Assembly: GCA_020443325.1 (NCBI GenBank)
Contig: JAGRIK010000180.1
Span: 1 to 36,736, forward strand
Source: Halioglobus sp.
GTDB taxonomy: Bacteria; Pseudomonadota; Gammaproteobacteria; Pseudomonadales; Halieaceae
DNA length: 36,736 bases
Reading direction: 5' to 3'
Of this stretch, positions 8,820 through 34,699 are shown piece by piece. The position numbers and the translations under genes were made by a program. The notes under the pieces were generated by a model. That model ran no database searches and was not told where the DNA came from. It saw nothing but the letters and a program-made list of their open reading frames with translations. Position 1 is the stretch's first letter. The number at the start of each line of letters is the position of its first letter.

Positions 8820-8854
8820 TCTAGCGGAATGCGCGCGTGTGGAAAACTCTGCGC

Positions 8855-11030: not shown

Positions 11031-11040
11031 CCCGGGTGAC

Positions 11041-11652
11041 TCAACCCTGGCCCGGGTCTGAACCGAATACGCGGTCCCACAGCGGTGAGCTGACGCCATA
11101 GCGACCGCCCTCACCGGAGTAGTGGTGTTTCAGGTGATAGTGCTTGAGAAACCTGGCGACCTTGTTGCGCATTGGGAAGTGATGTGTCGAATAGTGGATA
11201 TAGTCGTAGATCAGGTACCCGATGATAAAAAACGCACAAAAGGGCTGTATCCAGGGCTGGGGGATAAACAGGCCAAACAGCAGGTACAGCACCAGCATGA
11301 TGGGTATCGCGCCAGCCGGCGGCATCACCAGCCGGGTCTTGTCTTTTGGATCCTCATGGTGGTTGCCGTGAAAGAGGAATACCAGCCACTTGCCCAGTTT
11401 GCTGGTGGCAGGGAAGTGAAACAGGTAGCGGTGCAGGCAGTATTCGGTGAGGGACCAGGTGGCGACGCCCGCCACCCCGATGGCCAGCACGGGAAGCAAA
11501 GGGAGCTGGTATACCGCGAGGCTGCGCCAGATCAGCCAGCCGGCGATAGGCCCCCACATCAGCAGCGGCGTAATGGGGTGAACGTGGGATAACCGCTCCA
11601 GAAAATCGTTCTCGAACAGGCGTATGGACTGGTGTTGATTCTCAGGCTGCAT
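11041..11652 (-). CDS. Fatty acid 2-hydroxylase, Scs7/FA2H-like di-iron membrane enzyme, 203 aa
   Basis: The histidine clusters H-R-Y-L-F-H, H-G-N-H-H-E, H-Y-S-T-H-H and H-L-K-H-H-Y form a di-metal site. The surrounding text (D-K-T-R-L-V-M-P-P, Y-D-Y-I-H-Y, G-V-S-S-P-L-W-D-R-V-F-G) matches the yeast Scs7 / mammalian FA2H family, which adds the 2-hydroxyl to the N-acyl chain of ceramides. The cytochrome b5 domain of the eukaryotic enzymes is absent, so electrons come from another carrier. At least three or four membrane segments. The ATG at 11652 overlaps the end of the acyltransferase gene by 11 bases. In this locus, 2-hydroxylation of a ceramide is the natural reading. Confidence 0.87.
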   Translation of the reverse strand: MQPENQHQSIRLFENDFLERLSHVHPITPLLMWGPIAGWLIWRSLAVYQLPLLPVLAIGVAGVATWSLTEYCLHRYLFHFPATSKLGKWLVFLFHGNHHEDPKDKTRLVMPPAGAIPIMLVLYLLFGLFIPQPWIQPFCAFFIIGYLIYDYIHYSTHHFPMRNKVARFLKHYHLKHHYSGEGGRYGVSSPLWDRVFGSDPGQG

Positions 11653-12628
11653 AGGAATTGGTGTCGGCGTCACGGCCGCTCTCCTCAGGTTTGTCGGGTT
11701 TATCTTTGGACCACAGGCGTTTCGAGCAGAACCAGTCTTCCGGTTGCTGGCGGATCCAGTCTTCAAACTGGTGGTGAACCTGCTGGATCATATCGATGGC
11801 CTGTGCGGTCTCGTCCGCGCTGGTATCGCGGGGACGGACAGGGGCGTGGAAGGTCACGCGATAATGCGCGTCCTTAAGTCGTTCAACCTGCACGGGCACC
11901 AGGTCGCAGTCGAATTTCAGGGCCAGCTTTGCCGGCATGATGGTCGAGGACTTGTCGTGCCCGAAAAACTCTACCGGTTTGCCTTCATCGACCCGTCGAT
12001 CCATCACCATGGCCACCGTGCGGCCCTGTTTCAGCGCGCGCATTAACAGGCGGGCGCTGTTCTCTGCCGGCAGCAGTTCGCAGTTCAGGGCGCGGCGCGA
12101 ATCCAGCAGCATACGATCCAGCAGGGGATTCGTGGGCGGCGAGTAAAGGCTGGCGTTGGGGATATTCAGCTTCGCCATCGCAGAGCACACCACTTCCCAG
12201 TTGCTCTGGTGAGCCGTCACGATGACGCACGGCCTGGCGGGATTCTCGTAAGTCTCGATGGGCTCACGTATGTCGATCTGCAGGCGATCGTCCTCAGCGA
12301 GAATCGTGGCCAGGTGCGGATACTCTGCCATCACGCGCCCCGAACTTCCCCACGCACGGGTCACCAGCGCGTCCAGTTCGGCGCTGCTCAATTCGGGAAA
12401 CGCGATCGCCAGGTTGGTGCGGTAGATCGCCGTTTTATTGGCGAGCCTCGGGCCTATCCAGCTCCCGATTTTTTCACCGAATCGGGAAGCGGTATCGATC
12501 GGAAGCAGGCGTGCGAGTTTGGTAATCACCCACACGAGGACAAAATCCAGCCGCCACAACGCCTCGCGGAGCAGGCGATGATTGCGTGCCCATTTGCGCA
12601 GTGGATTGCCGACAATAAATTCTGCCAC
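11642..12628 (-). CDS. LpxL/HtrB-like acyltransferase, 328 aa
   Basis: Same family as the gene at 10098-11030 and clearly related to it: T-N-L-A-I-A-F-P-E-L, C-V-I-V-T-A-H-Q-S-N-W-E, P-E-D-W-F-C-S-K-R-L-W. The catalytic HX4E motif is intact (His140, Glu145). Family enzymes transfer acyl chains from acyl-ACP to hydroxyl groups of lipid A precursors at the inner membrane; here a sphingolipid or other glycolipid acceptor is equally possible. Start is GTG 12628 with AGG about 13 bases upstream. The C-terminal ~25 residues are a charged extension beyond the domain. It lies 75 bases after the CerR-like gene and overlaps the hydroxylase gene. Confidence 0.87.
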   Translation of the reverse strand: MAEFIVGNPLRKWARNHRLLREALWRLDFVLVWVITKLARLLPIDTASRFGEKIGSWIGPRLANKTAIYRTNLAIAFPELSSAELDALVTRAWGSSGRVMAEYPHLATILAEDDRLQIDIREPIETYENPARPCVIVTAHQSNWEVVCSAMAKLNIPNASLYSPPTNPLLDRMLLDSRRALNCELLPAENSARLLMRALKQGRTVAMVMDRRVDEGKPVEFFGHDKSSTIMPAKLALKFDCDLVPVQVERLKDAHYRVTFHAPVRPRDTSADETAQAIDMIQQVHHQFEDWIRQQPEDWFCSKRLWSKDKPDKPEESGRDADTNSYAA

Positions 12629-12703: not shown

Positions 12704-13642
12704 TCAAAGTGGTGGTAATTTGAGCAGTTGAAGTCCTTCGCGCAGCCCCACGGCGGGCGTCCAGCCCGTGGCCGCAGTGATCGCAGTGTTGTCTGCCACC
12801 CAGTCGTCGTGGCGCAGTTCACGCAGCTTGGGCGGTGTCAGCATGGGTGCGCTGCCAGTGATGCTCGCAAGCCTGCTGTTCAGTGCGGCTGCGGTGTCCA
12901 GGAGCCAGCGCGGTATGCGCAACAGGCGAACCCGGCGCGACCAGTGCTGCGCGGCAATAGCGGCCAATTCGTGCCAGTTGTAGCCGTTGGGCCTGCCGTC
13001 ACAGAGGGTCAGGGTCTGCCCGCTGGCCGCGTCACTCTGCAGGCAGGCAATAATGGCGTCCACCAGGTCTGAGACGTGGATCAGGGACATGCGCACCTCG
13101 GGCGAACCCGGCACCACGGCGATGCCGCGCCGCATCAACTGGAAGATCGGCAGCATCTCCTTGTCACCGGGGCCGTAAACCGCCGGTGGTCGAATCACGG
13201 TGCGGTTGATATCCGCAAATCCTTCCAGCTGTTGCTCGCCCTCCCACTTGCTGTGGGAGTACCAGGACAAATTCGGCTCGCGCGCGACGATGGACGAGAG
13301 CAGCAGCAGCCGGGGCGGGCGGGGCTGCGCCGTTATCGCGCGCAGCACGGCGGCGGTTCCGGCGACGTTGACGCGATCGAAGTCTGCCTGTGAATTTCCC
13401 CGGACGGCACCGGCACCGTGTACCACGGCGTCACAGTGTTCAAGGAGTTGTTGCAGTGCGGTGTGGTTGGCGAGATCTCCCTCTATGAGGGTGACACCGA
13501 GTTCGGCCAGGTGTGTGGCTTTGGTTGTATCCCTGACCAGTGCACGGACGCGGTAGCCCCGCTCCAGCAGGCGCTGGCACAGGGTGGAACCGATAAAACC
13601 GGTGGCGCCGGTAACAGCAATGAGGCTGCCGTCGACGATCAG
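12704..13642 (-). CDS. cerR: NAD-dependent epimerase/dehydratase-family reductase, CerR-like, about 312 aa
   Basis: Extended short-chain dehydrogenase. The cofactor loop G-A-T-G-F-I-G (residues 12-18) and the catalytic Y-S-H-S-K (Tyr128, Lys132) with Ser116 are present. In Caulobacter a protein of this class (CerR) reduces the 3-keto group during ceramide synthesis. It directly follows an acyl-activating enzyme and the locus has serine palmitoyltransferase, so CerR is the best call. The gene has no ATG, GTG or TTG between the upstream in-frame stop (ending at 13670) and the cofactor loop. The likely start is CTG at 13642, in a CTGA overlap with the ligase stop and with AGGG 10 bases upstream. 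A shorter start at GTG 13426 would delete the cofactor loop. Confidence 0.78.
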   Translation of the reverse strand: MIVDGSLIAVTGATGFIGSTLCQRLLERGYRVRALVRDTTKATHLAELGVTLIEGDLANHTALQQLLEHCDAVVHGAGAVRGNSQADFDRVNVAGTAAVLRAITAQPRPPRLLLLSSIVAREPNLSWYSHSKWEGEQQLEGFADINRTVIRPPAVYGPGDKEMLPIFQLMRRGIAVVPGSPEVRMSLIHVSDLVDAIIACLQSDAASGQTLTLCDGRPNGYNWHELAAIAAQHWSRRVRLLRIPRWLLDTAAALNSRLASITGSAPMLTPPKLRELRHDDWVADNTAITAATGWTPAVGLREGLQLLKLPPL

Positions 13643-15417
13643 GCTGAAGCCACCCTCAGGCGCACTTCTTCAGCGGCGGCGTCGAGCCTATCCAGGTCGT
13701 TGCCGTTGATGAAGTCCAGACGCGCCTTGGCGCGTGACAACTTGCCGGACGACGTGCGCGGCAGCGAGTGAATGGGGACCAGTTCGACATAGCAGTCCAG
13801 GCTCATCTCCATGCGCACTAGTGCCGTCAGGCGACGCACGAGGTTATTGCGCTTGACGTGGTCTGTTTCGCGACACTGGACCATCAGCACGCAGAGTTCC
13901 TCGCCCTCACTGTTGGGCGCTGAGAATGCCACCGCATCGCCAGCGCGCACTTCGGGCTGGGTTTCAGCGACATGCTCAAGATCCTGCGGCCAGATGTTGC
14001 GGCCGTGAATAATGATCAGGTCTTTTTTGCGGCCGGTGATCGTGAGTACACCGTCCACGAGGTAACCGATGTCACCGGTATTCAGCCAGCCGTCTTCACA
14101 CAGTGCGTGGCTGGTTTCTTCGGGCAGGTTGAAGTAGCCGGACATCACACTCGGGCCGCGCAGATAGACCACGCCACTCTGCCAGTCGTCCAGTACGCGG
14201 TTGTCGTCGCGGATTTCGACTTCAAAGTTGGGCATCGGGATACCGCAGTTAACAAAATGCCGACCTCGGCCCTGGGTGTCGTCTTCCTCCATCAGTACCG
14301 CTTCATGGTGATCGGAGAGATGGTCGCTGTCGATGTAGTGTGTCGTGAAGCCCGTCCACAGCGGTGAAAAACTGACGCCCAGCGTGCATTCCGCCATACC
14401 GTAACAGGCCAGGAATGCGCGGCGATCAAAGCCGGCGGGCTCCATCATCTCGGCGAAGTACTCAAGTGTCTGCGGGCGGATCATCTCTGCGCCGATACCC
14501 GCGACACGCCAGTTGCTGAGGTCGTAGGTTTCAATGTCATTGGGCCTTACCCGGCGCGCGCACAGGTCATAGCCGAAAGAGGGGGCGAAGGAGATGGTTG
14601 CCCGGGTCTGCGTCATCAGCGTGAGCCATTGTCGCGGCCGCATCGCGAACTCGCGGGTATCCAGGTAATCGATGGACACCTGTGCAGCCATTGGCACCAG
14701 CACGAAGCCGACCAGGCCCATATCGTGGTAGAACGGCAGCCAGGACATCATCCGGTCTTCTGCATTCATCTGCAGGCCGTGGGAGATGATGCCCTGCAGG
14801 TTAGCCATCGCCGTGAAGTGTTTGATCACCACGCCCCGCGGGAAGCGCGTGCTGCCGGAGGTGTACTGTATATAGGCGATATCGTCGGGGTCGACGACCG
14901 GCAATTCCTGTGTGGATGCGGGAAGTGCATAAAACGATTCAGGTGTTTCCACCATACGGATATTCAGGCCCTCGCTGGCTTCCTGCAGGAAGGGCAGGTA
15001 ACCCTCGGAGGCGACACCGATGGCGGCATCGCTGGCTTCCAGCAGGAGGTGCAACTGCGCGACATAGGCACAGTGCGCGCCGACCTTGACGGAGGCGGGC
15101 AGTGCAACTGGAATCAGGCCCGCGTACTGGCAGGCGTAAAAGAAGCGAATGAAGTCCGGATTGGTTTCCGCGACGAGTGCAACGCGGTCACCCTTCGCAA
15201 GTCCGAGTCCCAGCAATTTGTGAGCCAGCGCAAGCGCTTCTGTGCGCAGCTCGGCATACGAGATGCTGGCGTAGATGGCGCCGCGACCAGTGTAGAAGTT
15301 GGAGCCGGTTTCACCCAGGGCTGCATAGTCAAGAGCCTCGGTCAGGGTGGCAAAGTCGGCTGGCCGAAAGGGTAGTCCGTGGTGGGTTGGCGTGGTATTT
15401 ACGTTAGCATTTGGCAA
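13639..15417 (-). CDS. Fatty acyl-AMP ligase / acyl-ACP synthetase, 592 aa
   Basis: Adenylate-forming enzyme (ANL superfamily) that activates a fatty acid with ATP and passes it to a carrier protein or CoA. The A3 phosphate loop Y-T-S-G-S-T-R-F-P-R-G-V (residues 185-196), the A8 hinge G-R-K-K-D-L-I-I-I-H-G-R-N-I and the A10 lysine in S-S-G-K-L-S-R (Lys559) are all present. The overall sequence is of the FAAL branch. In Caulobacter an acyl-ACP synthetase loads the dedicated acyl carrier protein of the ceramide pathway, and this gene is the candidate for that role. TTG 15417 is a well-supported start: AGGA lies 7 bases upstream. First gene after a long leader; coupled to the CerR-like gene. Confidence 0.88.
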   Translation of the reverse strand: MPNANVNTTPTHHGLPFRPADFATLTEALDYAALGETGSNFYTGRGAIYASISYAELRTEALALAHKLLGLGLAKGDRVALVAETNPDFIRFFYACQYAGLIPVALPASVKVGAHCAYVAQLHLLLEASDAAIGVASEGYLPFLQEASEGLNIRMVETPESFYALPASTQELPVVDPDDIAYIQYTSGSTRFPRGVVIKHFTAMANLQGIISHGLQMNAEDRMMSWLPFYHDMGLVGFVLVPMAAQVSIDYLDTREFAMRPRQWLTLMTQTRATISFAPSFGYDLCARRVRPNDIETYDLSNWRVAGIGAEMIRPQTLEYFAEMMEPAGFDRRAFLACYGMAECTLGVSFSPLWTGFTTHYIDSDHLSDHHEAVLMEEDDTQGRGRHFVNCGIPMPNFEVEIRDDNRVLDDWQSGVVYLRGPSVMSGYFNLPEETSHALCEDGWLNTGDIGYLVDGVLTITGRKKDLIIIHGRNIWPQDLEHVAETQPEVRAGDAVAFSAPNSEGEELCVLMVQCRETDHVKRNNLVRRLTALVRMEMSLDCYVELVPIHSLPRTSSGKLSRAKARLDFINGNDLDRLDAAAEEVRLRVASA

Positions 15418-15483
15418 TGTAGATTCCTCGTTTTCGACGATCTCTCCGCCGGTGTACCAATTTCCAGAGCACAGGTCTCGCTC

Positions 15484-15502
15484 ACCCCTTCAATCAAGGG
15501 GT
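15484..15502. promoter_or_regulatory. 7-bp inverted repeat in the ligase leader
   Basis: ACCCCTT (15484-15490) and AAGGGGT (15496-15502) are exact reverse complements around a CAATC loop. The repeat lies 66-85 bases upstream of the TTG start at 15417. It could be an operator or an RNA hairpin in the 5' untranslated region. Confidence 0.35.
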
Positions 15503-15560
15503 ATGACGCGCAATTCAATAATTCCCCTGTGAGCCTGTGGGCCGCTTATCAGTCATTTGC

Positions 15561-15572
15561 ACAAGTACTTGT
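15561..15572. promoter_or_regulatory. Perfect 12-bp palindrome in the ligase leader
   Basis: ACAAGTACTTGT reads identically on both strands with no spacer. It lies about 145 bases upstream of the acyl-AMP ligase start, a plausible place for a dimeric regulator such as a TetR-family repressor. No regulator is encoded nearby; function is inferred from symmetry only. Confidence 0.35.
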
Positions 15573-15985
15573 ACATGGGAAGGCCCTTTGCCCAGACCCT
15601 GGAAATAGGGTTATCTGATGAGGCGTAATCCTAGCATTCAGGGCTTTGCGGCTTATAGGAAATAATACCAAGGGCCGGCGTGAACTATGCCAAAGAAAGG
15701 GCATGCTTTCCGTGGCAGAAAACTTGCCGGCCGCACGAATGCAGCGAGGAGACGGCGTTTCCCGAGGATTTTTTCTCCGGTTATTTTACTTCCGGTTAGA
15801 TTTATAAGTATCTGATATATATAGATAATATTGATAAGGGTTGAGGTTGGCTCCAGGGGCTGGCTGCTCGCCTACTGATTCGGGGATTTGTCAAGATGGC
15901 GTTATCGCGTGTGGTATCCAGCTGCTAAATGGTGTGTATAAGTGCCAATTATCGGCCCGTCTGGGGCGCGAATCCGGCGCTTGCG

Positions 15986-17932
15986 CTACTGCGCCTTCCA
16001 CCAGGCCTGGAACATCAGTATCGACCACATCAGTTCCGAGTGGTTGGCCCAGCCGTACAGGTGCTGCTGCCACGCATTGCGCACATTTTCGACGTCAAAA
16101 ATGCCCTGTTCCCGCAACGCCTGTTCTGATACCAGGTCTTCCGCCCAGTCCCGCAGCGGGCCGACCAGCCACTCCTTTATCGGCACACTGAACCCGCGCT
16201 TGGGACGGTCTATCAGCTCGCGCGGCACATACTGCGTGAGCAGGTCCCGCAGCACGCGCTTGCCTGTTTTACCGTCAAACAGGTAATCGGTTGGCAGCGA
16301 CCAGGCGAGTTCCAGAACCCGGTGGTCCAGCAGCGGTGCGCGCGCTTCCAGCCCTACTGCCATGCTTGCGCGATCGACTTTCACGAGAATATCGTCTGGC
16401 AGGTAGCCGCAGTAATCGTAGTGGAGCATCGCGAGCAGCGGGTCCTGGACGTCCGCCCAGTAGGACGGATCCGTCAGCGGTGTTGCGGGGTCCACCGCAC
16501 CGGACACGAACTGGTCCACCGCCAGGCATTTGTTGAATTTATTGGCCAGGATTTCCTGCGGTGTATTGGCTGCCCAATTGCAGGATCGCTGGCTCACCTT
16601 CCCCAGCTTGCGGGTCCAGCGTGGCACGGTTTTGCCCTGGTTGGCGTATTTCTGCGCGAAGCGCCAGCTGCCGCTGCCCAGTGCCTCTGCAACGGGCTGC
16701 ACAATGCTCCTGGCGCTGCCGGGGATGCGCTGCACGTTGCGCCAGTGGCTCAGGCAATCGCGGTAGCGGCGGTAACCGGCCATCTGCTCATCCCCGCCAT
16801 CGCCGGTGAGTACCACCTTCAACTGCTGCCGGGCCAGTTTGCACACCAGGTAGGTGGGAATCTGTGAAGAGTCGGCGAAGGGCTCGTCGTAAATGTGTGG
16901 CAGCTGCGCAACGACATCCAGCGCCTGGTCGGGTGTGACGTAAATCTCGTGGTGGTCGGTTTTCAGGTGGTGGGCCACGGCCGCTGCGTATTCGGCCTCG
17001 TTGTACTTTTCCTCGGAGAAGCCGATGGAGAATGTCTTCACCGGGCGGTCGGACTGCTTCTGCATCAGCGAGACGATCATGGAGGAATCAATACCGCCCG
17101 AGAGCAGTGCGCCAAGCTCCACATCGGCCACCATGCGATCGCCGACGGCCTGTGCAAGCACGTCATCGAGCTCCCGGATGGCATCCTCGTAGCTGCCGCT
17201 GAAGCGATTGCGCTCGCCGCGTTCCGCCACCTCCCGGGCAGACCAGAACTCGGCGGGAGAGGCACTCCAGGGCTTGCAGTCCTGCGCTACCCTGAGCAGG
17301 CTACCCGGCGGTAGCTTGCGAACGCTACTGTAAATGGAGCGCGGTTGTGAAACCCAGCCGTACTGCAGGTACTGGCCCAGCGCGTCGCGGTCCAGGTCGC
17401 GTTCGAAATCCGGATGCTGCCGCAGGGCCTTCAGCTCTGAACCGAACAGGAAACTATTGCCGCACCAGCCGTAGTAGAGCGGTTTCTTGCCCACCCGGTC
17501 GCGCGCGAGCCACAGGCAGCGCTCTTCCCTGTCCCACAGCGCCAGCGCGAACATGCCCTCCAGCATGCTGACCGCTTTCTCGACGCCCAGGTGGTTTACC
17601 GCGGCCAGGATCACCTCGGTGTCGGAATGCCCTCGAAACGGGTAGGCAGACACCCCCGCTTCCCGGCGCAGCCTGGCGAAGTTGTACACCTCACCGTTGA
17701 ACGACAGCACGTAGCGGCCGGACGCCGATACCATGGGCTGGGCGCCCGCGTCCGACAGGTCGATAATGGAAAGGCGGCGGTGTCCGAGCGCTACCGGGAA
17801 GGCGGGATCCACCCAGACACCGTCTGCATCGGGCCCACGGTGAACAATGGTGTCCGCCATGCCCTGGCAGCGACGCGCCAGGTCCTCGGGAGAACCGCCG
17901 CTGTACTGTATAAAACCGGTAATTCCGCACAT
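15986..17932 (-). CDS. Asparagine synthetase-type glutamine amidotransferase, 648 aa
   Basis: Two-domain enzyme. The N-terminal glutaminase has the nucleophile Cys2 (M-C-G-I-T-G-F) and R-L-S-I-I-D-L-S-D-A-G-A-Q-P-M. The C-terminal ATP-binding domain has the PP-loop L-S-G-G-I-D-S-S (residues 277-284) and G-D-G-G-D-E. It amidates a carboxylate using glutamine and ATP. At 648 aa it is longer than housekeeping AsnB (about 550) and matches the paralogues found in polysaccharide and glycolipid clusters, where the target may be a sugar acid and not aspartate. It starts 14 bases after the upstream glycosyltransferase gene. An amidated uronic acid head group is an inference from context. Confidence 0.88.
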   Translation of the reverse strand: MCGITGFIQYSGGSPEDLARRCQGMADTIVHRGPDADGVWVDPAFPVALGHRRLSIIDLSDAGAQPMVSASGRYVLSFNGEVYNFARLRREAGVSAYPFRGHSDTEVILAAVNHLGVEKAVSMLEGMFALALWDREERCLWLARDRVGKKPLYYGWCGNSFLFGSELKALRQHPDFERDLDRDALGQYLQYGWVSQPRSIYSSVRKLPPGSLLRVAQDCKPWSASPAEFWSAREVAERGERNRFSGSYEDAIRELDDVLAQAVGDRMVADVELGALLSGGIDSSMIVSLMQKQSDRPVKTFSIGFSEEKYNEAEYAAAVAHHLKTDHHEIYVTPDQALDVVAQLPHIYDEPFADSSQIPTYLVCKLARQQLKVVLTGDGGDEQMAGYRRYRDCLSHWRNVQRIPGSARSIVQPVAEALGSGSWRFAQKYANQGKTVPRWTRKLGKVSQRSCNWAANTPQEILANKFNKCLAVDQFVSGAVDPATPLTDPSYWADVQDPLLAMLHYDYCGYLPDDILVKVDRASMAVGLEARAPLLDHRVLELAWSLPTDYLFDGKTGKRVLRDLLTQYVPRELIDRPKRGFSVPIKEWLVGPLRDWAEDLVSEQALREQGIFDVENVRNAWQQHLYGWANHSELMWSILMFQAWWKAQ

Positions 17933-17946
17933 CGTAAATCTGCCTG

Positions 17947-19200
17947 TTATCGTCGAGCTTCAGCTCGGGTGACCACGGAATCGAGCAAGGCGAGATAGTT
18001 GTCGACAGCCCGTTCGACGGAGAAATCCCGTGCGCGGGCCAGCAACAGGGCCCTGTCTATCGGGTCGTCCAGTTCCGCCTGCATCGCGTTGGCCATCGCG
18101 TCCACATCGCCGACGGCAACCAGCGCGCCGTATTTGCCGTCCGCAAGAATCTCCCTGGAGCCGCCGGGGCAATCGGTACTGACCACAGGGCAGCCACACG
18201 CCAGCGCCTGTATGAGCACGCCCGGCAGGCCCTCGTACAGGGAAGACAGCACCAGCAGCGACGCGTGCGCCATAAACTGGAAGGGGTTCCCGACAAATCC
18301 GGGCATATCCACGTCGGCCTGGATGCCGAGGTCGTTCGCCAGTTGCTGCAAATCGGGTCGCAGTCGCCCCTCGCCCAGAATAACCAGGCGCACCGGTCTC
18401 TGTGCATGCACGAGAGCGAACGCCCGCATGAGCGTTGGAAAATCCTTTTGTTCCGTCAGCCTGCCCGCCGCCAGGATGACGGGCGGGCTACCCGGCGTAA
18501 ACCAGGGGTGCTCCAGCGGCTGTTTCGCACCGTTGTGCAGCATACTGTCGACAACCGGATTGTGGATGGTCGCGACCAACTGCCGATCGACGCCCACCCG
18601 CGTGACCAGTTCCTCTGCCGCGTCGTGCGAGACGGCGACCACGGCGTCGGCGCCCGGGTACGTCCGGTTCACCAGTGCCGGCAGGTAGCGCCATTTCCAT
18701 TTGCGGTAATTGGACGGCGCGGCGCAATAGGTGGACAGCGCAATACGTTCGCTGACCACAACCGGCACCGTGGACCCGGACATCTGTTTCGCCCAGATGC
18801 CGATGAGGTTCGCGTAGGTAATGGCCGACAGCACCACATCGGGCTTGGCCGTCGCCAGGTACCGTTGCAGCGATGCAATACAGGCGATTTCCGGGGCCAC
18901 TTTTTTCGCCAGCAGGACGGGCCGCAGCAGCACTGGGAAATGCCGGATATTGCCCAGCAGCGTACCCCAGCGTGCCCGCAGGCCGCTGACGGCCTCCAGC
19001 TCGATCAGGTTTACGCCGGCCGGAACGTCCGCGAGATAGGCCCCTTTTGCCCGGCACACCACCAGATCAACGGCGCGGCCCTGTGCGAGAAAACCCCTGA
19101 TCAGGTTCAGCATCGAGCGCTCTGCGCCACCGCCCTCCAGCGAGGGCAGTAGAACCGCTATCCTGGCAGCGGATGCCCCTGCGGGTGATTTGTCGTTCAT
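17947..19200 (-). CDS. GT4-family glycosyltransferase, 417 aa
   Basis: GT-B glycosyltransferase with N-terminal L-L-P-S-L-E-G-G-G-A-E-R-S (acceptor-side glycine loop), the donor-domain start I-L-A-A-G-R-L-T-E-Q-K-D-F, and the motif E-G-L-P-G-V-L-I-Q-A-L-A-C-G (E323). The second glutamate of EX7E is glutamine (Q331), a variant I recall from other surface-glycan enzymes, so activity is still likely. ATG 19200 fits the domain start; its AAGGA site is almost adjacent, so initiation may be weak or the true start may differ. It is the first gene of the minus-strand cluster, back to back with the GNAT-like gene. Confidence 0.86.
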   Translation of the reverse strand: MNDKSPAGASAARIAVLLPSLEGGGAERSMLNLIRGFLAQGRAVDLVVCRAKGAYLADVPAGVNLIELEAVSGLRARWGTLLGNIRHFPVLLRPVLLAKKVAPEIACIASLQRYLATAKPDVVLSAITYANLIGIWAKQMSGSTVPVVVSERIALSTYCAAPSNYRKWKWRYLPALVNRTYPGADAVVAVSHDAAEELVTRVGVDRQLVATIHNPVVDSMLHNGAKQPLEHPWFTPGSPPVILAAGRLTEQKDFPTLMRAFALVHAQRPVRLVILGEGRLRPDLQQLANDLGIQADVDMPGFVGNPFQFMAHASLLVLSSLYEGLPGVLIQALACGCPVVSTDCPGGSREILADGKYGALVAVGDVDAMANAMQAELDDPIDRALLLARARDFSVERAVDNYLALLDSVVTRAEARR

Positions 19201-19349
19201 TCCTTCAGTCTCTGGTTTGCTGGGTATCCACGAGCGGCGCTGTACACCGGTTTCCCGGCGCGAGTGGGTTGAGGCGAGCAAGCGCGTAGTATACACCGAA
19301 GGGATTGGGCCACTATCGGCCCTGCCCCAGCGGCGGCGCGTGGCGCTGA

Positions 19350-19378
19350 TTTCTCAGGGGGTGAATTCAACGGTATAC
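19350..19378 (+). promoter_or_regulatory. Candidate promoter of the GNAT-nucleotidyltransferase operon
   Basis: TTCTCA (19350-19355) and TATACT (19373-19378) are separated by exactly 17 bases, with the ATG 33 bases further at 19412. It lies in the 211-base gap between divergent genes. A second TATAC-containing sequence at 19288-19295 could serve the minus-strand glycosyltransferase operon, but its -35 is poor. Confidence 0.42.
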
Positions 19379-19411
19379 TTGCGGCCCCTTTCGTGGATAC
19401 AGCGCACACGC

Positions 19412-20560
19412 ATGACAGCTGATACCGATTCCAAAGCGCCAATCTCGGTAGAGGTTGTCACCAGGCCTGACCAGATGCGTCAGTTTCTGGCGCTGCCGCA
19501 CCGGATTTATGCCTCCGATCCGGCCTGGATAGCCCCGCTCGACTTTATGAAGCGCGAGCAGATGTCCCCGAAGAACCATTTTTTTGAACATGCCCGCTGG
19601 CGTGCCTGGGTGGCCTGCCGGAACGGCCAGCCCGTGGGGCGTATCACCGCCCAGATCGACGCCATGCACCTGCAGCAACACGGTGACGATACAGGCTATT
19701 TCGGCATGCTGGAGGCAGAGGACGATCCCGCTGTATTCGCGGCACTCTTCAGCGCGGCGGAAGACTGGCTGCGCGGCGAGGGAATGCAGCGGGTGCGCGG
19801 TCCGTTCAATTTACATGTGAACGAGGAAGTCGGCCTGCTGGTCGAGGGCTTCGCCACTCCGCCCTATGTGCTCATGGGCCACGCGCGCCCCTGGTATGGC
19901 CCCGCCGTCGAGGCGCAGGGGTACGCCGGGGCAAAAGACCTGCTGGCCTACCATGTGCGGCCGGATTTCGAGGCGCCGCGGGTGATGGAGCGCCTGGCGC
20001 AGCGCGTCTCGGATCGCGTAGTGGTGCGGCCCGTGCGGCGCGACAAACTGCTGGAGGATGCCGACATCATGCTGGAGATCTTCAATGATGCCTGGCAGAA
20101 CAACTGGGGCTTCGTGCCGCTGGCGCGGGCCGACTGGGCCGAGACCGTGTCGACCCTCAGCAAACTGATGCCCGATGACTACATCCAGATCGCGGAGTAC
20201 GACGGCGAACCCGTCGCCTTCATCGTCGCGTTGCCGAATCTCAACGAGGCCGCTCGCGATCTCAACGGCCGCCTATTACCGTTCGGCTGGGCCAAACTGT
20301 TGTGGCGCCTGAAAGTGCGCCATCCCAAAACGGCCCGGGTGCCGCTGATGGGTGTCAGGCAGGGCTTCCAGCACTCGCGGCTGGGACCCACACTGGCCTT
20401 TATGGTGATCGATGCGGTACGCAAGGCGCTGCATGCGCGCGGCGTACGCGATGTGGAAATGGGCTGGATACTTGAGGATAACGACGGCATGCGCAATATC
20501 ATTGAAACCATAGGCGGCGTGGCGTATAAACGCTACCGCGTCTACCAGAAAGAATTATAG
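19412..20560 (+). CDS. GNAT-like N-acyltransferase, candidate bacterial ceramide synthase, 382 aa
   Basis: Large GNAT-fold protein. N-terminal part: H-R-I-Y-A-S-D-P-A-W-I-A-P-L and R-V-R-G-P-F-N-L-H-V-N-E-E-V-G-L-L-V; C-terminal part: A-V-R-K-A-L-H-A-R-G, then G-W-I-L-E-D-N-D-G-M-R-N-I-I-E-T-I-G-G, typical of the acyl-CoA-binding half of GNAT enzymes. In Caulobacter an unusual GNAT-type protein of similar size (bCerS) N-acylates the sphingoid base. Size, architecture and the serine palmitoyltransferase 4 kb away support the same role. Direct sequence identity could not be measured. ATG 19412 is used because the open frame upstream runs through the promoter region. The nucleotidyltransferase gene starts 2 bases after its stop. 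Confidence 0.75.
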   Translation: MTADTDSKAPISVEVVTRPDQMRQFLALPHRIYASDPAWIAPLDFMKREQMSPKNHFFEHARWRAWVACRNGQPVGRITAQIDAMHLQQHGDDTGYFGMLEAEDDPAVFAALFSAAEDWLRGEGMQRVRGPFNLHVNEEVGLLVEGFATPPYVLMGHARPWYGPAVEAQGYAGAKDLLAYHVRPDFEAPRVMERLAQRVSDRVVVRPVRRDKLLEDADIMLEIFNDAWQNNWGFVPLARADWAETVSTLSKLMPDDYIQIAEYDGEPVAFIVALPNLNEAARDLNGRLLPFGWAKLLWRLKVRHPKTARVPLMGVRQGFQHSRLGPTLAFMVIDAVRKALHARGVRDVEMGWILEDNDGMRNIIETIGGVAYKRYRVYQKEL

Positions 20561-20562
20561 TA

Positions 20563-21381
20563 ATGCACCTGGATCCCGAAACGCACCAAATAACGGCTAT
20601 TGTACTGGCGGGTGATCGCACCAAGGCGGACTCACTCATCAATCACACCAAAGCCGGCAGCAAGGCCATGATAGACCTCGATGGCACGCCCATGGTGCGC
20701 AGGGTGCTCAATTCCCTGCGTTCATCCAAGGTCGTCCGCAAGATCTGCCTGGCCGGGCCCGAGGCGAGCGAAGTGGCCACGGACGCGGCGCTGCAAAAAT
20801 GGATCGACGATGGCGAGATCAGCTGGACCGAGCCAGGCGTCAGCCCGAGTACCAGTGCCTACGAGGCGATGCAGGCACTCGCGCCGGAAGAAGCCGTGCT
20901 GCTGACCACAGCGGATCACCCGCTGCTGACATCGGACATCGTCGACGCCTTCGGCCGCCAGAGCCTGGCAGACGACGTCGACGTCACCGTGGGACTCGCC
21001 CCCTATGCACTGGTAGCAGAGGCCTATCCCGGCATCCGTAAAACAGTATTGCGCTTCAGCGACGGCGATTTCTGCGGGTGCAACCTGTTCGCCTTCATCA
21101 CCCCGGAAGGCCGCCGCGCCGCCAAGTTCTGGCGCAAAATCGAACAGCAACGCAAAAAACCGCTAGTCGTCATCGGCCTCCTCGGCTGGTGGGCAGTCAT
21201 TCGCTACCGCCTTGGCCTGCTCTCCTTAGAAGAAGCACTCGCCAAGCTCAGCAAACGGCTGGGACTGCGTATGCGCGCGGTGATCCTACCTTACGCCAAC
21301 GCTGCGATTGATGTCGATTCCATTGCCGACCTGATGTTGGTCAAGGGTGCTCTGGAGAAAGCTGCGGCTGAGGATGCTTAG
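20563..21381 (+). CDS. MobA-like NTP transferase domain protein, 272 aa
   Basis: Nucleotidyltransferase fold: starts with I-T-A-I-V-L-A-G-D-R, where the nucleotide loop is an atypical L-A-G-D-R-T-K in place of L-A-G-G-x-G-x-R/S. It continues with S-K-A-M-I-D-L-D-G-T-P-M-V-R-R-V-L and the metal-binding L-T-T-A-D-H-P-L-L-T. Relatives make activated sugars or CDP-alcohols. A hydrophobic stretch V-V-I-G-L-L-G-W-W-A-V near residue 205 could touch the membrane. Tight linkage to the GNAT gene (2-base gap) suggests a role in activating or attaching a sphingolipid head group; that is inference. It ends in the repeat-rich convergent region. Confidence 0.78.
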   Translation: MHLDPETHQITAIVLAGDRTKADSLINHTKAGSKAMIDLDGTPMVRRVLNSLRSSKVVRKICLAGPEASEVATDAALQKWIDDGEISWTEPGVSPSTSAYEAMQALAPEEAVLLTTADHPLLTSDIVDAFGRQSLADDVDVTVGLAPYALVAEAYPGIRKTVLRFSDGDFCGCNLFAFITPEGRRAAKFWRKIEQQRKKPLVVIGLLGWWAVIRYRLGLLSLEEALAKLSKRLGLRMRAVILPYANAAIDVDSIADLMLVKGALEKAAAEDA

Positions 21382-21434
21382 GGTTTTCCTAGTTTGAACG
21401 CGGGTTAGAGTGTTTCGGCTTGAAACGGTGGTCA

Positions 21435-21511
21435 CTTCGGGGTCGGGTCTGCTCGCGTAACCGGTTTTCAGTCGCTCCCGGGATGCCGGACCAACGTGAT
21501 TCGCTTGGTGA
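21435..21511. repeat. Repeat element copy A (degenerate palindromic repeat)
   Basis: Shares with copy B a 44-base left part (21435-21478 versus 21515-21558, three differences; period 80) ending in TTTTCAGTCGCTCC. The constant loop is interrupted by 15 extra bases (21479-21493) and resumes as ACGTGATTCGCTTGGTGA (21494-21511). The right arm complementary to its left arm is missing, because copy B's flank begins immediately. It appears to be a decayed or partly deleted member of the same family. Confidence 0.7.
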
Positions 21512-21532
21512 TTTCTTCGGGGTCGGGTCTGC

Positions 21533-21591
21533 TCGGATAAGCGGTTTTCAGTCGCTCCACGTGATTCGCTTGGTGAAAACCGCTTATCCGA
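21533..21591. repeat. Repeat element copy B: 18-bp perfect inverted repeat with constant 23-base loop
   Basis: Arms 21533-21550 and 21574-21591 are exact reverse complements; pairing continues outward for about seven more bases with two mismatches. The loop (21551-21573) begins GTCGCTCCACGTGATTCG and ends CTTGG, framed by TTTCA and TGAAA. The loop agrees with copy C at 22 of 23 positions, whereas the arms beyond TTTCA/TGAAA are different. It lies between the convergent 3' ends of the nucleotidyltransferase and phosphoesterase genes. Confidence 0.85.
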
Positions 21592-21699
21592 ACAGCCCCT
21601 CCCTCGAATATCGCGCGTATTTCAGTGGCATGCGGCCAGCTTCCAGAGCAACCCCCATAGAACTTTCAACTGCGGAAGACCGTCCGGGCCGGAGACAAA

Positions 21700-21778
21700 G
21701 GTTTCAGGAAGGCGATAGGCCATTTCACAAAGCGAATCACGTGGAGCGACTGAAATGGCCTATCGCCTTCCTGAAACC
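21700..21778. repeat. Repeat element copy C: 28-bp perfect inverted repeat with constant 23-base loop, opposite orientation
   Basis: Arms 21700-21727 and 21751-21778 are exact reverse complements over 28 bases. The loop 21728-21750 is the reverse complement of the copy B loop with one difference. The right arm is also the first 28 bases of a 74-base tandem unit (21751-21824) repeated at 21825-21898. The right arm therefore looks like resident sequence and the left arm like an inverted copy of it. Confidence 0.87.
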
Positions 21779-21898
21779 GCCCCCACCCAACGCCATAACC
21801 CCAAAGGCCTAAAACCGATCCATCTGAAATGGCCTACCACCTTCCTGAAACCGCCCCCACCCAACGCCATAACCCCAAACGCCTAAACCCGATCCAAC
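21751..21898. repeat. Tandem duplication of 74 bases including the phosphoesterase 3' tail
   Basis: Unit 1 (21751-21824) and unit 2 (21825-21898) differ at five positions. Unit 2 contains the stop codon and last codons of the minus-strand phosphoesterase (stop at 21883-21885), so unit 1 is a non-coding copy of that gene end and its downstream flank. Copy C of the palindromic repeat sits exactly at the outer end of unit 1. Confidence 0.85.
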
Positions 21899-22800
21899 TG
21901 CAACGTTTCCCTGTCGCCCTCAACAAACTCACCCAAGTCAGGCCGATAGCGTCTAGGCTCAACGCTCAACTCCCAGCCCGCAGCATTGCGCTCCACCTCA
22001 TAGCGATTGTACGCCGCGACATCCGCCCCATGCAGCCCCAGCGCAGAGGCTGAGGGAACCGCGATCACCGGCACGATGCCATGGCGGCTGTGGAGTTCGT
22101 TGAAATGGGCGCGGTGCCCGTGGCCGTGTAATACCAGTTCTGCGCCGTGTTCTTCCAGCAACGCCTGAACCTGCGGGGCATCGGTGAGGCGCTTGCGCCA
22201 TTTTTCCTTTCCGGCCACCGGGCAGTGATGCAGGTAGACCACCCGGAACAGCCCTTGATCAGCCGCGTCCTGCAGCAGCGCCGGTAGTCGGCTCAACTGC
22301 GCCTTGCCGAGTGTGCCGGTGGCCATTAGGGGGGGCTTGGGACAGCCGGTGGACAGCCCGATGAACGCGATGTTGCCGCGCACTCTCAGGCTGGGGAAGG
22401 TCGAGGCCTCTGTGGGAAAGTCGCGGTTGTTATCCGACGCCATGTAATCCTGCCACAGTGCGAAGGTGTCGTGCCACGGTGCTGCGACGCAGGCGTCGTG
22501 GTTGCCCGGCACCAGGGCGATATCGGTGGGATCACCCAGTGCGTGCAGCCAGGTTTCGGCCTGCCTGAATTCGTCCGGGAGGCCGATATGCGTGAGGTCG
22601 CCGGTGACGAGTAACTGGTCCAGGGCCACTCCCGCGAGGTCGCGTTGCAGCGCCTCGAGGACTTCCGGGCGGTGCTCGAAACGACGCTTGCGGCGCCAGG
22701 ACAGGTAGCCCAGTGCGCGCTTGTTGAGGAGGTCACGGGCGCGCACATCGTCCAGAGAACTCAGGTGGGGGTCAGAGAGTTGGGCGAAACACTGCGGCAT
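21883..22800 (-). CDS. Calcineurin-like metallophosphoesterase, 305 aa
   Basis: All metal-binding motifs of the family are present in order: D-P-H-L (Asp10, His12), G-D-L-T-H, G-N-H-D, H-H-C-P and G-H-G-H. Family members hydrolyse phosphomonoesters, phosphodiesters or pyrophosphates; LpxH of lipid A synthesis belongs to the same superfamily, but this is not clearly LpxH. No signal peptide, so cytoplasmic. It is the last gene of the acyl carrier protein-Spt-MurA operon, 32 bases after murA. A role in removing phosphate or a nucleotide from a sphingolipid intermediate is possible but unproven. ATG 22800 has GAGG about 11 bases upstream. Its 3' end is duplicated downstream. Confidence 0.86.
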   Translation of the reverse strand: MPQCFAQLSDPHLSSLDDVRARDLLNKRALGYLSWRRKRRFEHRPEVLEALQRDLAGVALDQLLVTGDLTHIGLPDEFRQAETWLHALGDPTDIALVPGNHDACVAAPWHDTFALWQDYMASDNNRDFPTEASTFPSLRVRGNIAFIGLSTGCPKPPLMATGTLGKAQLSRLPALLQDAADQGLFRVVYLHHCPVAGKEKWRKRLTDAPQVQALLEEHGAELVLHGHGHRAHFNELHSRHGIVPVIAVPSASALGLHGADVAAYNRYEVERNAAGWELSVEPRRYRPDLGEFVEGDRETLQLDRV

Positions 22801-22832
22801 GGTGTCGTGATCCTCTCGCTGTGCGGGCGTCG

Positions 22833-25288
<2,456 letters not shown>

Positions 25289-25334
25289 GAAGTTATCTAC
25301 CTCTTAACGTGCAGGGTGACCTGCGGGGCGACTT

Positions 25335-25577
25335 TCAGAGGTTGAGTTCGCGGACCTTCTTCGCCAGATCGCCAATCGTGTTAACGTCCGGGAGAATATT
25401 CAGGGGAATGGAAATATCGAAGTGATCCTCGATCTTCTCAATAAATTCCATCACCTCGAGAGAACTGAGTCCCATATCAGCCACCAGTGCGGTGTCTTCA
25501 GACAACACCAACTGCTTTTTGTTCTGGAATGCCAGGGCGCTATAGAGGAAGTCCAGGTATTCCTGATAGTCGGTCAT
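25335..25577 (-). CDS. acpR: Dedicated acyl carrier protein, 80 aa
   Basis: Small acidic four-helix protein. The phosphopantetheine site is D-M-G-L-S-S-L-E-V-M-E, with Ser39 in the position of the DSL serine. It differs strongly from a housekeeping AcpP (which has D-S-L-D). An ACP directly upstream of spt is the arrangement seen in several sphingolipid producers, where it presents the acyl chain to Spt. It is probably loaded by the acyl-AMP ligase at 13639-15417 (inference). First gene of the operon acpR-spt-murA-phosphoesterase; divergent from the ELM1-like gene. Confidence 0.88.
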   Translation of the reverse strand: MTDYQEYLDFLYSALAFQNKKQLVLSEDTALVADMGLSSLEVMEFIEKIEDHFDISIPLNILPDVNTIGDLAKKVRELNL

Positions 25578-25590
25578 GTTAAAGCCGCCC

Positions 25591-25661
25591 TTGCGTCGGT
25601 CAAGGTAAGTCGCTAGATTTCAAAGGCTTGAACTATACCCACGGAAGTATGCTAATGCCAG
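25591..25661. promoter_or_regulatory. Divergent promoters between the acpR-spt operon and the ELM1-like gene
   Basis: Plus strand: TTGCGT (25591-25596), 17 bases, TAGATT (25614-25619), 36 bases before ATG 25655. Minus strand: CTGGCA (complement of 25656-25661), 18 bases, TATAGT (complement of 25632-25637), about 55 bases before the acpR start. The minus-strand -35 would overlap the start of the ELM1-like gene. Both are matches by eye. Confidence 0.38.
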
Positions 25662-26701
25662 TAATTTGGTTGATCGACGCCTATCGTGCAGGCGAGCGTG
25701 GACAGGTGAACGCCCTGGTCGACGCGCTGGGCTGGCCCTGCGAGACCAAGGTGTTGAGCTATCGCAGCCATGTGTTCCTGCCGCATGTCCTCGGCCAGTC
25801 GACCCTGCGCGGCATCCGCCCGGAATCCGCCGCCCTGTTGCAGCCACCGTGGCCGGACCTGGTGATCAGCAGCGGTGTGCGCAATGAGCCGGTTTGCCGC
25901 TGGATTCGCGAGCAATCGGGTGGCCGCACACGCTATGTCCACGTCGGGCGCCCCTGGGCATCACTGGATTCCTTCGATCTCGTAATCACGACACCCCAGT
26001 ACCGGGTGCCCGATCACCCCAAGGTGCTGAACAATATGCTGACCCTGCACAGCGTCACGGAGGAGCGTCTCGCGCAGGCTCGCGCGCAGTGGGAGGACAC
26101 GTTTGCCGCATTGCCCAGACCCCGTTTTGCCGTGATGGTGGGCGGTGATAGCGGCCCCTATACGCTGGGAGAGAAGGCGGCTGCGCGCCTGGGAAGAGAG
26201 GCATCGCAGCTGGCGCGCGCCAAGGGTGGTTCGCTGTTGATCTCCACCAGTTCCCGCACTCGCCCCGCGGCGGTCGATGCGCTGCAGGCCGCCATCACGG
26301 CGCCGAATTACTTCTATCGCTGGTCGGATGCGAATGCGGATAACCCCTACCAGGGCATCCTGGCGTGGGCCGACCGCCTGATTGTTACCGGCGACAGTAT
26401 CGCGATGTTGTCGGAGGCCTGCGCCACGGGCAAGCCGGTCACAATGTTCGATCTGGGGGGTATGCGCGACAGCAACGATGAGTCCGCGCGGGATTTTCGT
26501 CTCGGGGGTACCCTGTACGCGCTGTTAATGCGCTGGTTCTGGCGCCCGTTGAGCCGGGATATCACGCTGGTTCATCGCCGCCTGCGCGAGGCGGGTTGCG
26601 TTTCATGGGTCGAGGACGTGTTGGTGACGGCCATGGTGCCCGCAGAAACCGATATGCACCGCGCGGTGGCTGCGGTGCACAGGCTATTTGGCGACACCTG
26701 A
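25655..26701 (+). CDS. ELM1-like protein (Mito_fiss_Elm1 family), probable GT-B enzyme, 348 aa
   Basis: Starts I-W-L-I-D-A-Y-R-A-G-E-R-G-Q-V-N-A-L-V-D-A-L, then P-P-W-P-D-L-V-I-S-S-G, M-V-G-G-D-S-G-P-Y, S-T-S-S-R-T-R-P, and D-N-P-Y-Q-G-I-L-A-W-A-D-R-L-I-V-T-G-D-S-I-A-M-L-S-E. These blocks mark the family named after plant ELM1, which in bacteria occurs with lipid A and surface-lipid genes and has the layout of a GT-B glycosyltransferase. The enzymatic activity is not established. ATG 25655 is chosen (GGAAG 7 bases upstream); ATG 25649 and TTG 25628 are alternatives. Its 3' end overlaps the convergent ABC transporter gene by 18 bases. A paralogue lies at 31675-32769. Confidence 0.78.
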   Translation: MPVIWLIDAYRAGERGQVNALVDALGWPCETKVLSYRSHVFLPHVLGQSTLRGIRPESAALLQPPWPDLVISSGVRNEPVCRWIREQSGGRTRYVHVGRPWASLDSFDLVITTPQYRVPDHPKVLNNMLTLHSVTEERLAQARAQWEDTFAALPRPRFAVMVGGDSGPYTLGEKAAARLGREASQLARAKGGSLLISTSSRTRPAAVDALQAAITAPNYFYRWSDANADNPYQGILAWADRLIVTGDSIAMLSEACATGKPVTMFDLGGMRDSNDESARDFRLGGTLYALLMRWFWRPLSRDITLVHRRLREAGCVSWVEDVLVTAMVPAETDMHRAVAAVHRLFGDT

Positions 26702-30599: not shown

Positions 30600-30627
30600 G
30601 CGGTACGTTTCCTTTGGAGACTGGCCG

Positions 30628-30682
30628 GCATTGTACATGAAGCGCCAGTCGTCTGGTCATTTTGACCCGCATCGCGCATAAT
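30628..30682. promoter_or_regulatory. Divergent promoter region, lptF-like operon and sulfotransferase operon
   Basis: Plus strand: TGGTCA (30654-30659), 17 bases, CATAAT (30677-30682), 40 bases before ATG 30722. Minus strand: -10 TACAAT (complement of 30628-30633) with only a weak -35 (TGACCA) 18 bases before it. The minus -10 overlaps the ATG at 30638, an argument for the downstream TTG start of the LptF-like gene. Confidence 0.38.
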
Positions 30683-31672: not shown

Positions 31673-31674
31673 AC

Positions 31675-32769: not shown

Positions 32770-32901
32770 CGAGGGGCCTGATTACCGCTTCCCTGGAAAC
32801 ACTCTAACCACGATTTCCGCTTTTTTCTTTCTCCCGCGCGTGTAGTGTGTGTTCCGGGAATAATAAACAAGACACAGAGAGCAAGACACCGCGAGGTCCA
32901 G

Positions 32902-34692: not shown

Positions 34693-34699
34693 ATACGCT

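Follow-up and report, generated by a model that had tools for sequence, protein, structure and literature searches.

The DNA considered here, a contig of 36,736 nucleotides (JAGRIK010000180.1, contig C107 of genome G000; the window, for short), comes from a Halioglobus species of the gammaproteobacterial family Halieaceae whose draft genome comprises 4.7 Mb in 365 contigs and is 89.96% complete. The window holds the genes of a ceramide pathway, a fatty acid hydroxylase gene set between two LpxL-like acyltransferase genes, the gene of an MsbA-like ATP-binding cassette (ABC) protein, and a pair of genes for LptF and LptG of the Lpt export machine (Table 1); the subject of what follows is this cluster and its bearing on lipid A, the genes for which appear to be missing from the same genome. 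The genomes compared are further members of the host's genus (G001-G017), a genome of another family of the same order (G025), genomes of other families of that order, and a class sample of 276 gammaproteobacterial genomes, G000 included. A scan of the window for tRNA genes found none.

Table 1. Features of the window, with coordinates, strand and basis of assignment
Feature	Position	Strand	Basis and remarks
GT4-family glycosyltransferase (start assumed)	7506..8768	-	PF13692/PF00534; in some relatives only
O-antigen ligase/polymerase-like membrane protein (Wzy_C)	8855..10027	-	PF04932, 39.3 bits vs cut-off 31.7
LpxL-like acyltransferase B (start assumed)	10098..11054	-	PF03279; HX4Q
FA2H/Scs7-like fatty acid 2-hydroxylase (predicted)	11041..11652	-	PF04116 only domain; Scs7 PDB relatives
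LpxL-like acyltransferase A	11642..12628	-	PF03279; HX4E
CerR, ceramide reductase	12704..13642	-	epimerase-type short-chain dehydrogenase/reductase; 35% to Caulobacter CerR, same order; probable CTG start
AasR, acyl-ACP synthetase / fatty acyl-AMP ligase	13639..15417	-	NF006624 above cut-off; 45% to Caulobacter
AsnB-like amidotransferase, variable island	15986..17932	-	PF00733; some relatives only
GT4-family glycosyltransferase, variable island (start assumed)	17947..19200	-	PF13692; varies among relatives
bCerS, bacterial ceramide synthase (N-acyltransferase)	19412..20560	+	47% over 379/384 residues to Caulobacter bCerS
Nucleotidyltransferase, CC_1153-like	20563..21381	+	PF12804; 34% over 259/260 to Caulobacter protein adjoining bCerS
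Metallophosphoesterase, CC_1158-like (start assumed)	21883..22812	-	PF00149; 41% over 299/305 to Caulobacter protein
MurA	22833..24083	-	NF006873/TIGR01072 above cut-off; within spt transcription unit
Spt, serine palmitoyltransferase	24083..25288	-	NF047599 above cut-off; 58% to Caulobacter
AcpR, dedicated acyl carrier protein	25335..25577	-	PF00550; 48% over 46/80 residues to Caulobacter
ELM1-family protein, predicted GT-B fold	25628..26701	+	PF06258; model pLDDT 85
ABC transporter half, MsbA-like	26684..28426	-	PF00005/PF00664; adjoins LptG in relatives
LptG, ceramide-cluster type	28465..29535	-	TIGR04408 252.3 vs cut-off 240
LptF, ceramide-cluster type	29532..30638	-	TIGR04407 270.9 vs cut-off 230
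Sulfotransferase	30722..31672	+	PF00685; adjoins LptF in genus stretches reaching that far
Second ELM1-family protein (start assumed)	31669..32769	+	PF06258; kept in genus stretches reaching that far

The ceramide genes

Spt scores 595.7 bits against the serine palmitoyltransferase family NF047599 (cut-off 500), its closest PDB relatives are the serine palmitoyltransferases 2x8u and 2jgt, and its TFSKS motif, presumably the pyridoxal phosphate-lysine motif, is conserved in the 20 sequences compared. Identification as BioF or Kbl was considered and rejected, the protein reaching only 322 of the 426 bits required for BioF (TIGR00858) and 291 of the 460 required for glycine C-acetyltransferase. 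AasR scores 777.8 as a fatty acyl-AMP ligase (NF006624, cut-off 600), and AcpR has a serine within GLSSLEVM, which we take to be the attachment site. The PDB relatives of CerR include the NDUFA9 subunit of complex I; NDUFA9 homology has also been reported for Caulobacter CerR (PMC11087976). The cerR gene has no ATG, GTG or TTG upstream of its Rossmann motif, the first such start lying only at 13426; it likely starts at a CTG that overlaps the aasR stop codon as CTGA (region 13580-13680, minus strand). The same CTGA context is seen in seven of the eight relatives examined, the exception being G012. A PDB search with bCerS returned a single weak match only; its Caulobacter vibrioides counterpart adjoins LptG2.

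The likeness to Caulobacter extends to gene order. In the DNA of Caulobacter vibrioides DSM 9893 (L258), counterparts of AasR, CerR, AcpR and Spt occur in that order (45, 35, 48 and 58% identity) and, with bCerS (47%), all five genes of the proteobacterial ceramide pathway (aasR, acpR, spt, cerS, cerR) have Caulobacter counterparts in one neighbourhood. The nucleotidyltransferase and metallophosphoesterase genes of the window are matched there as well; CC numbers were assigned by comparing the gene order of L258 with that given in PMC11324152, CC_1153 by position and CC_1158 by position together with the phosphoesterase domain named there. The gene set is predicted to make dihydroceramide.

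An earlier note on this DNA, made from its letters alone, had proposed these same five parts, matching the Caulobacter set and spread over three neighbouring transcription units of a gammaproteobacterium-like genome, and in this it was right: the open reading frames that it cited are all open at its coordinates, Spt does not group with BioF or Kbl, the GNAT-like protein and the reductase do not fall into unrelated families, and the nearest named contigs are labelled Halioglobus, Haliea, Halieaceae and Gammaproteobacteria (one, at 77%, Ectothiorhodospiraceae). Its range, 12704-25577, places the five genes correctly and ends too early, stopping before the LptF/LptG pair, the ABC transporter and the ELM1 proteins of the conserved block.

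Spt of at least 80% identity is present in 18 of 18 genomes of the genus. Among 10 genomes of other families of the order only G025 has a close Spt (61%), the others reaching at most 38%, and in the class sample a close Spt (E <= 1e-100) is found in 17 of 276 genomes, that of the host included.

LptF, LptG and LptD

G000 has no PF03739 matches other than the LptF and LptG of the cluster (28465-30638), and exactly two such matches occur in 14 of 17 genomes of the genus. In 11 of 11 cluster stretches from relatives the ABC transporter, ELM1, AcpR and Spt have LptF and LptG, or as much of them as precedes the contig end, as neighbours, and in the class sample LptF/G lies near Spt in 15 of 16 Spt-bearing genomes (the exception is G274). 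In midpoint-rooted trees of LptF and of LptG (40 sequences each, from 42 sources), the genus copies group with the cluster copies of G137, G025, L240, G210 and G096 with supports of 96-100; one extra copy each, of LptF in G001 and of LptG in G009, falls within or next to this cluster-type group. The trees set the pair apart from the LptF/LptG of eight other families of the order, and the notion that it is the order's canonical pair was rejected on that ground. LptD is retained in 16 of 17 genus genomes, that of the host among them, and in G025; in G007 it is in two pieces. In G000 the pair coexists with the absence of lpxC, lpxD, lpxA and lpxB, which bears on whether it carries LPS.

One side observation concerns G013, which at C1:208888-209112 has a short, sub-threshold LptF/LptG-like piece with an internal stop, possibly the remnant of a lost second pair.

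Loss of the lipid A genes

The profile of LpxC and LpxB covers 26 genomes: 17 of the genus, G025, and eight of other families. LpxC has no match in 14 of the 17 genus genomes, including G000, nor in G025, and is present in 8/8 of the other families; LpxB has none in 13 of the 17, again including G000, nor in G025, and is likewise present in 8/8. The LpxC search was positive in its controls (E. coli, Caulobacter, Synechococcus, Bacteroides). Both genes are thus missing in 13 of the 17 genus genomes searched, and four relatives (G011, G013, G014, G015) keep lipid A genes. G014 is counted with the latter because it lacks ftsZ as well as LpxC and has lpxD, lpxA and lpxB, its missing LpxC being put down to an assembly gap.

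The loss is clean at both of the loci concerned. In the lipid A-bearing G013 and G015 the order is ftsZ-lpxC-M23-secA; in 8/8 lipid-A-less genomes examined (G000, G003, G012, G016, G025, G001, G008, G004) it is ftsZ-M23-secA, and the order of the adjoining genes is kept as far as the contig or stretch reaches. At the second locus G013, G014 and G015 have bamA-skp-lpxD-fabZ-lpxA-lpxB-dnaE, and in G011 the contig runs from bamA-skp-lpxD-fabZ-lpxA into lpxB, where it breaks off. Each of the nine lipid-A-less genomes examined at this locus (G000, G003, G001, G008, G012, G004, G016, G006, G025) has skp-fabZ-dnaE without lpxD, lpxA or lpxB, with rnhB retained between fabZ and dnaE; a search of these stretches for lpx remnants found none below E 0.1 (the lowest value was 0.12). 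The G000 junctions at the two loci lie inside contigs C229 and C286. Where the junctions are assembled inside contigs, a gap in the assembly is excluded as an explanation for the missing genes; artefact was accordingly rejected wherever the loci are assembled across, and accepted for the lpxC of G014.

Within the class sample LpxC is found in 262 of 276 genomes. In the data examined, Spt without LpxC is peculiar to the host's genus and G025.

Order of events

The lipid-A-less genomes of the genus form one clade, with support of 100 in a tree built from 11 proteins of the cluster (31 rows, of which many are incomplete) and 96 in a housekeeping tree (FtsZ, FtsA, BamA, Dxr, RseP, SecA, DnaE; genes missing in many rows), the four lipid A-bearing relatives lying outside it. 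These four form a clade of their own in the cluster tree and a grade in the housekeeping tree, the deep nodes of which are weak; G017 falls in the lipid-A-less clade of the cluster tree. The basal named genomes L221, L224, L225, L228, L230, L231 and L232 stand outside the lpx survey. Because ceramide genes occur on both sides of this divide, the cluster likely came first, the lpx genes being lost afterwards in a single event within the sampled genus and in an independent one in G025. Because the lipid A-bearing G013 and G015 have only the cluster LptF/LptG intact, the pair probably worked on LPS until LPS was lost.

Hydroxylase, acyltransferases and head group

The assignment of the hydroxylase as Scs7/FA2H-like, also made in the earlier note, holds: at E <= 0.01 it has no PDB relatives but the Scs7 structures 4zr1 (5e-23) and 4zr0 (1e-22), with the histidine motifs aligned, and these motifs are conserved in relatives. 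A domain search of the protein found no cytochrome b5 domain. The sequence comparisons support a predicted 2-hydroxylase of the N-acyl chain. The PF04116 superfamily also includes C4 and sterol enzymes, so that the sphingoid base (at C4), or some other lipid, comes into question as the target; that Scs7, a ceramide fatty acid hydroxylase, supplies the only structural relatives and shares the histidine motifs makes such a target unlikely. Acyl hydroxylation in Caulobacter, which has been assigned to the DesA-family protein CC_0202 rather than to an FA2H (PMC11324152), lends that alternative some weight.

The two LpxL-like genes flank the hydroxylase gene in the window, as they do in 8 of 11 cluster stretches from relatives; as to the other three, the 40 kb fetched for G025 show no trio, the contig of G009 ends, and in the 40 kb fetched for G016 the half that holds bCerS, AasR and FA2H was not found. 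Both LpxL-like proteins fall below all listed NCBIfam cut-offs for lipid A acyltransferases (the best score of A is 178 and of B 149, against 273). The catalytic motif of LpxL enzymes is HX4D/E. HX4E is found in 14 of 15 sequences of A and HX4Q in 14 of 15 of B, and in the single exceptions (G274 for A, L232 for B) the best match seems to be the other copy; judging by its motif, B may be an acyltransferase of changed activity or one that has lost it. The idea that the trio is an adaptation to the loss of LPS was rejected: the trio is present in the lipid A-bearing G011, G013, G014 and G015 and in G137, an LpxC-bearing genome of another family (FA2H identity 64%).

A CpgC-like protein is encoded in every genus genome searched but G010 (16 of 17) and in G025, and in 0/8 of the other families. 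In 7/7 stretches fetched a ceramide-kinase-like gene lies beside it; in G000 the pair is on contig C27 (CC_1161-like, 32-35%; adjoining CC_1160-like, 26% over 304), and in G003, G012, G013 and G015 it lies about 9-14 kb past the LptF end of the cluster, further away in G001. By homology only, these are the putative CpgB and CpgC counterparts of the host, and the CpgC-like and ceramide-kinase-like genes make a phosphorylated ceramide a likely product. A 2-oxoglutarate-Fe(II) oxygenase-like protein (6730-7485) adjoins the cluster of the window, and its relatives lie near the ceramide-kinase pair in five of seven stretches.

Probable replacement of lipid A by a sphingolipid

The reading that we prefer, and hold to be probable, is that in this Halieaceae-like lineage a sphingolipid has taken the place of lipid A in the outer membrane and that the window is the cluster for its biosynthesis and export. 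AasR would load a fatty acid onto AcpR, Spt would condense the AcpR-bound acyl group with serine, bCerS would N-acylate the product of Spt, CerR would reduce the product of bCerS, and the FA2H-like enzyme would hydroxylate the N-acyl chain. Decoration of the lipid may fall to the two LpxL-like proteins, the GT4 and ELM1/GT-B glycosyltransferases, the ceramide kinase/CpgC-like pair and the sulfotransferase. The MsbA-like ABC protein would then flip the lipid, and LptF/LptG and the retained LptD would carry it to the cell surface. The gene content and gene order are observed; the enzyme activities, the replacement in the membrane and the transport of a sphingolipid by Lpt we infer from sequence. 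A more elaborate version would have the cluster make a ceramide-based analogue of LPS, in which a 2-hydroxy N-acyl chain is esterified by the LpxL-like enzymes (an acyloxyacyl ceramide), an O-antigen-like glycan comes from glycosyltransferases together with the O-antigen-ligase-like protein of the variable island, and export through the MsbA-like protein and LptFG-LptD permits the loss of lipid A; this is a tentative proposal, and on balance a doubtful one.

Two other explanations have to be weighed against replacement. Loss of lipid A with no sphingolipid substitute, glycerophospholipids filling the outer leaflet, the sphingolipid being minor or confined to the inner membrane, and LptF/G/D serving another glycolipid, is improbable: the only LptFG pair of the genome is located in the cluster and of cluster type, Spt is kept throughout the genus, and G025, in another family, combines Spt and a cluster LptFG pair with no match to LpxC or LpxB. 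Acinetobacter is not known to have sphingolipid. Acinetobacter mutants are viable without lipid A (PMC10964400), which speaks for this explanation. Least credible, indeed very hard to sustain, is an ordinary Caulobacter-type ceramide cluster in a cell with normal LPS, the lpx genes being merely absent from draft assemblies. The incompleteness and fragmentation of G000, the demonstration by G014 that a gap can hide lpxC, and the retention of LpxC by the 16 class-sample genomes with Spt other than G000 speak for it; in G000, G003 (99% complete, 8 contigs) and G012 (99%), however, the assembly runs straight through both loci, with the lpx neighbours present, the lpx genes missing and no remnant detected at the threshold already given.

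Several observations count against replacement or limit its reach. That the other 16 Spt genomes all keep LpxC means that sphingolipid genes are not usually coupled to the loss of LPS. The cluster LptFG is the sole intact pair also in the LpxC-bearing G013, G015, G144, G160, G259 and G137, and so by itself is no proof of a sphingolipid-only carrier. Additional PF03739 matches exist in G001 and G009, and the search for LptD found none in G001. The Caulobacter cluster pair lies outside the cluster-type group of the LptF and LptG trees, on long branches, and a non-cluster copy from G166 lies at the base of that group, the deeper supports being lower. In G016 the bCerS/AasR/FA2H half was not found within the 40 kb fetched. 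No CpgA-like (CC_1159) gene was seen in the window or in the fetched genus stretches, the search extending to these and not to the whole genome. Most of the compared genomes are drafts or metagenome assemblies, as is the host's own incomplete genome a draft; G013 and G015 are both 99% complete, G002 and G010 74%, and the absence of LpxC from G010 weighs little because of this figure and because ftsZ is missing too. The searches for lipid A genes covered lpxC, lpxD, lpxA and lpxB, with waaA, lpxH, lpxK and the kds genes outside them; lptA, lptB and lptC were outside the export-gene search, and G017 outside the lpx search.

What makes lipid A indispensable to most diderms is an unanswered question (PMC10964400), and according to PMC11087976 bacterial sphingolipids have no identified flippase or transporter. 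Replacement of lipid A by a sphingolipid would bear on both that essentiality and the route of sphingolipids to the outer membrane: it suggests an Lpt machine able to function with sphingolipid as its sole cargo. The genus is a natural experiment, its members differing in lpxA, lpxC, lpxD and lpxB while sharing Spt. If replacement is correct, LpxC inhibitors should leave the lipid-A-less species untouched, and their close relatives not.

Flanking genes

The ABC half-transporter is a candidate flippase for the cluster's lipid; it stays below the MsbA cut-off (TIGR02203, 251 against 602). For the ELM1 protein at 25628..26701 the top fold matches of the model are GT-B glycosyltransferases and epimerases, at TM-scores of only about 0.4-0.5. 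The sulfotransferase is a possible modifier of the head group; with a sulfatase and a large DUF3604 protein it occupies 30722-36574, beyond the LptF end, and the same content is seen in G001, G008 and G016. MurA lies inside the spt unit also in G210 and G096, which raises the possibility that cell wall and envelope lipid are co-regulated.

Surface-glycan genes often vary between relatives. In the segments 15986-19200 and 7506-10027 the GT4, O-antigen-ligase-like and AsnB content depends on the relative examined, resembling an O-antigen island, and the Wzy_C-like protein differs among relatives both in position and in identity (27-47%).

Comparison with known systems

The closest described system is the Caulobacter crescentus cluster CC_1168-CC_1152 (PMC11324152), which has the same five ceramide genes, CC_1153- and CC_1158-like proteins, and LptF/LptG within the cluster; a CpgB-/CpgC-like pair exists in the host genome too, though outside the window. 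The host cluster has in addition the MsbA-like ABC protein, the ELM1/GT-B proteins, MurA, the LpxL-FA2H-LpxL trio and the glycosyltransferase island, and the window has no match at E <= 1e-4 to CC_1159, CC_1160, CC_1161, LptC2 or the CC_1166 flippase. The Caulobacter cluster LptF/G are described as second versions, with a role in Lpt transport only proposed (PMC11324152); they do not group with the host pair in trees and, unlike the host, Caulobacter vibrioides has LpxC. Complete ceramide sets in one region with transport genes are known from the gammaproteobacteria Azotobacter vinelandii and Pseudomonas luteola, for which production of CPG and CPG2 is expected (PMC11324152); the host resembles them in having a complete set in a single genomic region with transport genes. 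The ceramide set alone is therefore of an already known kind. The FA2H-like protein resembles the 2-hydroxylases of the Scs7/FA2H type (PDB 4zr0, 4zr1) in its histidine motifs and catalytic domain; unlike Scs7, it has no detected cytochrome b5 domain and is encoded between two LpxL-like genes.

The LPS-free Sphingomonas, which have sphingolipids, lack lipid A by nature (PMC10964400), and the host would share both traits, judging by its genes; Sphingomonas, however, belongs to the Alphaproteobacteria, and the host to a gammaproteobacterial genus that still includes relatives with lipid A genes. Caulobacter mutants also survive without lipid A, helped by anionic sphingolipids (Zik et al. 2022, as described in PMC10964400 and PMC12275187), but those are laboratory strains, whereas the host represents a natural lineage from which lpx genes are gone. 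No earlier report of a lipid-A-less gammaproteobacterium with sphingolipids was among the literature matches listed (titles and abstract starts, covering few subscription papers). What is new is that a single cluster-type LptFG pair and a retained LptD occur together with the clean loss of lpxC, lpxD, lpxA and lpxB in a genus that has lipid A-bearing members: a predicted gammaproteobacterial variant of the Sphingomonas-type envelope.

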